Below, one piece after another: positions 8,781-9,060 of a stretch of 20,948 nt of DNA (its first letter is position 1; each line of letters opens with the position of its first letter). The position numbers and the translations under genes are program-made. The DNA is from a virus, in the IMG/VR virus record IMGVR_UViG_3300042156_000024, positions 1-20,948 of that record; one strand, 5' to 3'. Below the pieces are notes generated by a model. It ran no database searches, had not been told where the DNA came from, and was given only the letters and a program-made list of their open reading frames with translations.

Positions 8781-9014
8781 GAAGGGTCGCACGGAGAATT
8801 CTTGGGGTCCCGCATGTGCGGGCTGCGACGGGCAAACTTCTCTAGACTTGCCATGCTTTCGCGGTCGGCGGCGTTGGTTGATCAAGGTGGCGGGCCAGAT
8901 GTGCACTGCGCAAGAGACCGTTGTGCACCCACGGCCTAAACAGACTCAGAATCGAATGTGCTTAGGTTGATCTCTCTGATAGCCAGTTATTCCCCGCCTG
9001 GGGCTAATCCGCGG
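8756..9014 (-). ncRNA. Candidate non-coding RNA between hammerhead cleavage site and terminator
   Basis: This is the 259-nt stretch between the predicted hammerhead cleavage (between 9015 and 9014) and the terminator U-tract. I see no convincing gene in it: the only ATG-initiated frame (8854 to about 8753, 33 codons) has no ribosome binding site and runs through the terminator stem. Inverted repeats are dense. GTCGCA pairs with TGCGAC around a nested CCCGCA/TGCGGG hairpin (8809-8822), and two GTGCAC copies face each other near 8900-8935. A GGCAA/TTGCC pair is also present near 8831-8851. It could be a discrete RNA with a ribozyme-made 5' end, or simply a structured leader. Confidence 0.35.
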
Positions 9015-9060
9015 GACTCCTAAGAGTTTCGACCTACCGGTCTCATCAGCCGCGTTAAGC
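9003..9060 (-). ncRNA. Type I hammerhead ribozyme
   Basis: All core elements are present in order on the minus strand. Stem I 5' strand is CGCGG (9054-9050). CTGATGA is at 9049-9043. Stem II is GACC/GGTC with loop GGTA (9042-9031). GAAA is at 9030-9027. Stem III is CTC/GAG with loop TTAG (9026-9017), closed by the A9027-U9016 pair. The cleavage triplet is GUC (9017-9015), and the stem I 3' strand is CCGCG (9014-9010). Beyond an internal loop, stem I continues as GCT/AGC (9060-9058 with 9005-9003), the place of the usual tertiary contact. The open helix is stem I, so it is type I. Cleavage is expected between 9015 and 9014. It starts 5 nt after the stop codon of the MptE-like gene. Confidence 0.9.

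Follow-up and report, generated by a model that had tools for sequence, protein, structure and literature searches.

Genomic setting of the element

The window analysed here, a stretch of 20,948 nucleotides from a viral record, is the head and tail cluster of a tailed phage, with terminase, portal, capsid, connectors and tape measure encoded on the minus strand. Within this cluster, a sialyltransferase-like gene is followed by a non-coding element, in which a hammerhead ribozyme directly abuts a structured RNA termed the core below (Table 1). The element lies between a predicted promoter, which overlaps the stop of the preceding gene and whose predicted start at about 9056 is two bases before stem I of the ribozyme, and a hairpin resembling an intrinsic terminator, and these two signals together give it the appearance of an RNA gene of its own.

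Table 1. Features of the element and its surroundings in the window
Feature	Position	Strand	Basis or remarks
Gene before the element	9641-9066	minus	phrog_4603, sialyltransferase-like
Sigma-70-like promoter, predicted	9091-9063	minus	TTGACA (9091-9086), 17 nt, TAGAGT (9068-9063); 10/12 consensus
Type I hammerhead ribozyme	9054-9010	minus	sequence, MFE fold, shuffles, covariation
Hammerhead stem I	9054-9050/9014-9010	minus	
Hammerhead CUGAUGA	9049-9043	minus	
Hammerhead stem II	9042-9039/9034-9031	minus	
Hammerhead GAAA	9030-9027	minus	
Hammerhead stem III	9027-9024/9019-9016	minus	A15.1-U16.1 counted in
Cleavage site, predicted	9015^9014	minus	GUC 9017-9015 ^ C 9014; C17 = 9015; hammerhead rule
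Core of the structured RNA, ~125 nt	9014-8889	minus	blastn, halves of CM R1, covariation
b strand CCGCGG (3' strand of stem I; predicted start of the cleaved core)	9014-9009	minus	b1 = 9014
Helix P2	9006-9002 with 8984-8980	minus	100% paired, 3 pairs changed on both sides
Pseudoknot PK1	GGCGGG 8998-8993 with CCCGCC 8894-8889	minus	15-member alignment, 72 permuted members
Helix Px	AGAGAUC 8975-8969 with GGUCUCU 8919-8913	minus	6/7 pairs changed on both sides
Hairpin P4 (joins the halves in the direct order)	8966-8962 with 8939-8935	minus	100% paired, 3 pairs changed on both sides
a strand CCGUGG (same sequence type as the b strand)	8934-8929	minus	a1 = 8934
Pseudoknot PK2	GUGCAC 8928-8923 with GUGCAC 8906-8901	minus	100% paired, 4/6 pairs changed on both sides
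Intrinsic-terminator-like hairpin	8780-8763	minus	GCCCGC-CUUCGA-GCGGGC then UUCUUUUU; consensus match only

The promoter is kept in all 27 inspected sister phages, again with 10/12 consensus positions, as a TTGACA-17-TA(A/G)AGT-like arrangement over the stop codon. Viral contigs contain 54 relatives of the gene before the element, and only one of these 54 loci (L311/L200) has the element itself; since the promoter is thus common to sisters that lack the element, it appears to serve the slot rather than this RNA in particular. In the sister phages (L310-L363), this slot, about 0-700 nt past the homologue of the 9641-9066 gene, is a variable site for RNA cargo behind the conserved promoter, containing tRNA-Trp, -Gln, -Met, -Phe, -Gly or other modules, and tRNA genes follow the homologue at about ten of the 31 loci scanned. 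A second non-coding module, located at 8810-8884 on the minus strand of the window (GATCAACCAACGCC...AGTCTAGAGAAGTTTGCCC...), occupies the same variable slot in sister phages and is also present in L312, L315, L317, L319, L321, L327, L329, L332 and L343. Elsewhere in the window, a match to the lysine riboswitch at 4891-4784 lies in a coding frame and reaches 18.7 bits against a cut-off of 30, which is most likely due to chance.

A type I hammerhead ribozyme

Read along the minus strand, the ribozyme is CGCGG-CUGAUGA-GACC-GGUA-GGUC-GAAA-CUC-UUAG-GAG-UC^CCGCG, the caret marking the predicted cut. The initial annotation had described a complete type I hammerhead, and this description holds: all core bases (CUGANGA and GAAA), the A15.1-U16.1 pair and an NUH triplet are present, together with three covariation-backed stems, of which stem I is open to the flanks. 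Folding of positions 9056-9010 by minimum free energy (MFE) reproduces the type I three-way junction exactly. With a z of -1.1 the energy itself is unremarkable, and the core likewise has an ordinary MFE energy, in a model limited to pseudoknot-free folds. When both strands were scanned with a full hammerhead descriptor (core, 5+4+4 bp and NUH), this site was the only match in the window, and none of 400 dinucleotide shuffles gave one. The GUC triplet and the position of C17 point to the same predicted cleavage site as was originally proposed.

The search with the Rfam models, suggested earlier as a check, does see the hammerhead, though at a score below the curated cut-off: in Rfam 15, the window gives an HH9 match of 21 bits (E 0.44) against a gathering cut-off of 52, this cut-off being a curated score threshold and not a mechanistic feature. 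A relative (L131) likewise remains sub-threshold, with 24.7 bits against 34 for RF00163. The case for the hammerhead thus rests on comparison. When 15 relatives are aligned, 2 pairs of stem I, 3 of stem II and 2 of stem III have changed on both sides, with the stems 98-100% paired, so that the compensatory changes which had been anticipated for stems I and II extend to stem III. The closest sister (L200) has CCC/GGG in place of CUC/GAG in stem III, and its triplet is GUU instead of GUC. The outer part of stem I fared differently: the tertiary contact once assigned to it can be drawn, as GCU 9060-9058 with AGC 9005-9003, but is unconserved, and its 3' bases instead belong to the conserved helix P2 of the core, which is paired in 15 of 15 members. 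Stems I and II may still touch through some other contact. The hammerhead in the window is a genuine one, for which self-cleavage is predicted, and it adds a new member to the type I hammerheads already described in phages; bacterial and phage members of this type are collected in Rfam family RF00163 (PMC3088659).

Several further hammerheads were noted in the course of the scans. Members L227, L242, L279 and L282 carry an enlarged stem III of about 45-60 nt and of related sequence. Type III-like hammerheads of the form GUC-hairpin-CUGAUGA...GAAAC are located just before ORFs in L026, L027, L035, L052, L061, L066, L077, L079, L096, L103, L106 and L121. A recurring type I hammerhead with the stem I CUGUCU/AGACAG and a partly shared downstream sequence (L013, L015, L062, L068, L083, L118) is perhaps another case of a linked RNA.

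A conserved and structured core RNA

A blastn comparison of the region with annotated phages returned four phages of quite different gene context, in which the common block comprises the ribozyme and about 125 nt downstream of it. In the Pappous annotation this block appears as a hypothetical protein; a short protein gene was rejected, because its indels do not come in threes and because base-pair covariation explains the conservation. The core consists of two halves. Half A can be written as CGUGG-[PK2]-[Px]-[PK2']-AUCUGG-[PK1], and half B as CG[U/C]GGA-[P2]-CC.A-[PK1']-GGAAUAACU-[P2']-CC(U)AG-[Px'], the CG[U/C]GGA of the b strand being invariant. In the window, the order of parts is hammerhead, half B, hairpin P4 and half A, which we call the direct order.

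The alignment of the 15 direct-order members, window included, contains 42 pairs in eight helices, three of which are the hammerhead stems, with 97.3% of cells paired and 25 pairs changed on both sides; its covariation score is 0.471 compared with 0.146 after shuffling, and none of 500 shuffles reached it. Strong covariation was found in four helices of the core, two of them pseudoknots. The same fold recurs in 72 distinct members of the permuted order described below, where PK1, PK2 and P2 are paired to 100%, 98.8% and 98.8%, against 86%, 73% and 70% in the respective partner-shuffled controls, where variable helix positions use several pair types, and where a Px of 5-10 bp is found in 72 of 72. 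Many unpaired bases are invariant, in AUCUGG, GGAAUAAC and CGUGG. The MFE fold of the cleaved core additionally pairs CCGCGG with CCGUGG; this pairing of the two CGUGG strands lacks covariation support and was not adopted.

One family in two strand orders

The covariance model CM R1, built from 17 hammerhead-free cores, recognises the window in swapped halves, with B at 9014-8975 (30.1 bits) and A at 8936-8828 (27.1 bits), the B match starting at the first base past the predicted cut. The family, with cores of about 95-130 nt, thus exists in two circular permutations, the commoner of which has the order A-(hammerhead or short linker)-B. When the downstream strand (GGGGAATAACTGGNTANCAG and variants) served as a scan pattern, with no hammerhead required, all relatives recovered had one directly upstream, and a scan with half A alone hit at least 120 contigs, mostly true members and some of them without any hammerhead. 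Altogether, the structured RNA was seen in well over 100 phage contigs.

Among complete E. coli genomes, 108 of 5,426 contain a match, and plasmids yielded only an 18% partial match. Pattern scans of bacterial species genomes found no true member, which says little since prophages are strain-specific. Carriers available in culture are the Pectobacterium phages Pappous and Taid, Enterobacter phage SDFMU_EhYP, Arthrobacter phage Constance, the M. smegmatis phage Gaia and E. coli prophages, so that the RNA is open to direct study. In the sequenced phages inspected, the core RNA is unannotated. Against Rfam 15, the core had no match at E<=1 in the window and in L206, L210, L218, L236, L252 and L264, and none even at E<=10 in L131. 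Searches of the open-access literature yielded no description of it; the core RNA is apparently an undescribed family.

Members frequently reside near tRNA genes: a same-strand tRNA gene lies within 500 nt of 30 of 102 members, compared with 4.6% of random positions. In the M. abscessus phage phiGD24-3, strand A starts at the first base after an annotated tRNA-Ser, and in phage Gaia it adjoins the end of tRNA-Ser. Other locations include the interval between antiterminator Q and holin in an E. coli prophage and a position after the capsid gene in an Autographivirus relative. Contig L206 encodes a bacterial class A RNase P RNA besides more than 20 tRNA genes, and two of its tRNAs flank a core without hammerhead. 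Promoters are far less regular: other direct-order members have no comparably good promoter, with none obvious in most, and in the permuted order a -10 box 7 nt upstream occurs in 8 of 73 members where about one is expected, a modest enrichment. A promoter belonging to the family in general was dropped on these grounds, and given this weak signal an own promoter is claimed for the window only. The conserved unpaired bases and the neighbourhood of tRNA genes suggest that the core has a partner common to many bacteria.

A further regularity links two bases, a1 directly before CGUGG in strand A and b1 directly before CG[U/C]GGA in strand B. They are the same in 97 of 100 distinct members of the permuted order (C/C in 53, G/G in 38 and U/U in 6) and in 25 of 25 direct members, and these include every one of the 21 members without a hammerhead. 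This relation is not Watson-Crick, and mutual information revealed no covariation partner of a1 elsewhere in the core; candidates for its origin are a common trans partner or a symmetric tertiary contact. It is conceivable, though we consider it improbable, that the core is an undescribed class of RNA machine, spread over many phages with Gram-negative, actinobacterial and cyanobacterial hosts, whose shared partner recognises both NCGUGG strands, which would account for the identity of a1 and b1, and that the hammerhead is a timed or ligand-controlled switch coupled to the fold.

The hammerhead is tied to the core at a fixed base

With the register left free, 77 hammerheads of the family were parsed, and every one of them places the cut exactly 2 nt ahead of the G[U/C]GGA of the core; the triplets are NUH throughout. 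In the direct order, a hammerhead-blind scan found an intact hammerhead abutting the core in each of 25 distinct elements. In the permuted order, it is located within the joining loop in 52 of 68 clusters and missing in 16, and decayed-looking copies occur in L221, L224, L266 and Mycobacterium phage Gaia (L306); since some cores lack a hammerhead or have a decayed one, cleavage is not required for the core in every member. A general pattern for phage hammerheads gave 130 distinct matches, of which only the window has the core, so that the link between this hammerhead group and the core is specific. The published PaP3 hammerhead has no such core.

Probable maturation of a phage RNA and alternative explanations

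The hammerhead probably serves to trim the 5' end of an independent, structured non-coding RNA of the phage, with cleavage as predicted from the sequence. Transcription from the dedicated promoter would begin near 9056, the leading ~42 nt would fold as the hammerhead and remove themselves by the cut between 9015 and 9014, and the remaining RNA would carry its 5'-OH exactly at the first base of CCGCGGA and fold into the compact core of P2, Px, P4, PK1 and PK2. Because the 3' strand of stem I is also the b strand of the core, b should become available to the final fold once the RNA has been cut and the 42-nt ribozyme fragment has left. The hammerhead would act in cis as a device of 5'-end maturation, whichever promoter made the transcript. 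In the direct order, a leader would otherwise be left on the first strand of the core, and the ribozyme would remove it; in the permuted order, the 5' end may be set by a promoter or by a tRNA end, and the ribozyme would be optional. The parts of this proposal that comparison between relatives establishes are, as sequence features, the hammerhead, the core fold, the fixed junction and the conserved promoter. What we infer beyond this is that the RNA is cleaved inside the cell, that it functions in its cut form and that this form, with its 5'-OH, is stable and persists.

The initial annotation had seen the job of the ribozyme in cutting the late mRNA. In its developed form, this explanation holds that the hammerhead cuts a polycistronic late mRNA between genes and that the downstream structure merely protects the 3' piece. 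The site does lie between genes of the head and tail cluster and on the coding strand, hammerheads that flank phage genes are on record (PMC3088659), and such a core is missing from most other phage hammerheads that the scans found. It is nevertheless unlikely, as the promoter at the stop codon in 27 of 27 sisters and the terminator-like hairpin after the element argue against it, as does the absence of the element from sister phages with the same neighbouring gene, and relatives occur in such unrelated places as the Q/holin interval, tRNA clusters and the post-capsid position. The conserved promoter, the terminator-like hairpin, the abutting structured RNA and the sisters without both make the ribozyme appear part of an RNA cassette. 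The emphasis on late mRNA is thus probably wrong, while it would still be true that a late mRNA reading through the element is cut equally.

The sharing of a strand between stem I and the core also means that ribozyme and finished core compete for it, and a natural switch, in which a ligand or partner sensed by the core sets whether the hammerhead cuts, would make use of this competition. Strand sharing with a fixed register in 77 of 77, the many invariant unpaired bases and the MFE pairing of CCGCGG with CCGUGG in the cleaved core are consistent with such a switch, but the core is kept in hammerhead-free and decayed members and the a/b pairing is without covariation support, and we regard the switch as quite unlikely. 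Still less probable is a neutral insertion, in which the hammerhead would be a tolerated passenger in a loop of the core. Its optional presence in the permuted order, the very variable lengths of stems II and III and the decay of some copies would fit; the exact register in 77 of 77, the intact catalytic bases in nearly all copies, the constant presence of the hammerhead in the direct order and the compensatory changes in all three stems are hard to reconcile with it. That the hammerhead cuts and then re-ligates, yielding a circular or rejoined RNA, is very improbable, since the identity of a1 and b1, through which the 5' strand of the ribozyme could pair with a or b alike, extends to every hammerhead-free member, and neither a second hammerhead nor an NUH consensus before a1 was found.

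Comparison with known systems

With 5'-end maturation as the preferred reading, one group of phage hammerheads is joined to one particular conserved RNA at a constant base and thereby gains a concrete and testable job, and the question of why phages keep hammerheads can be put as a simple test on the attached RNA. This RNA is itself widespread, often found among phage tRNA genes, and exists in two permutations, which is rare for natural RNAs.

The ribozyme shares its catalytic core, three stems, NUH triplet, connectivity and occurrence in phages and prophages with the type I hammerheads of RF00163; it differs in that the copy in the window is under the Rfam cut-offs and in that a conserved RNA downstream uses the 3' strand of stem I as well. 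The core resembles GOLLD and ROOL, which are phage and prophage RNAs near tRNA islands (PMC12286853), in being structured, pseudoknotted and phage-encoded near tRNA genes. In contrast to these RNAs of 600-800 nt, it comprises about 95-130 nt and does not match their Rfam models, and two circular permutations and a built-in hammerhead belong to the core RNA. Permuted hammerhead and twister ribozymes likewise realise one fold in several strand orders, natural circular permutation being rare (PMC10085705). Here, however, the hammerhead keeps its type I order, and it is the attached RNA that is permuted.
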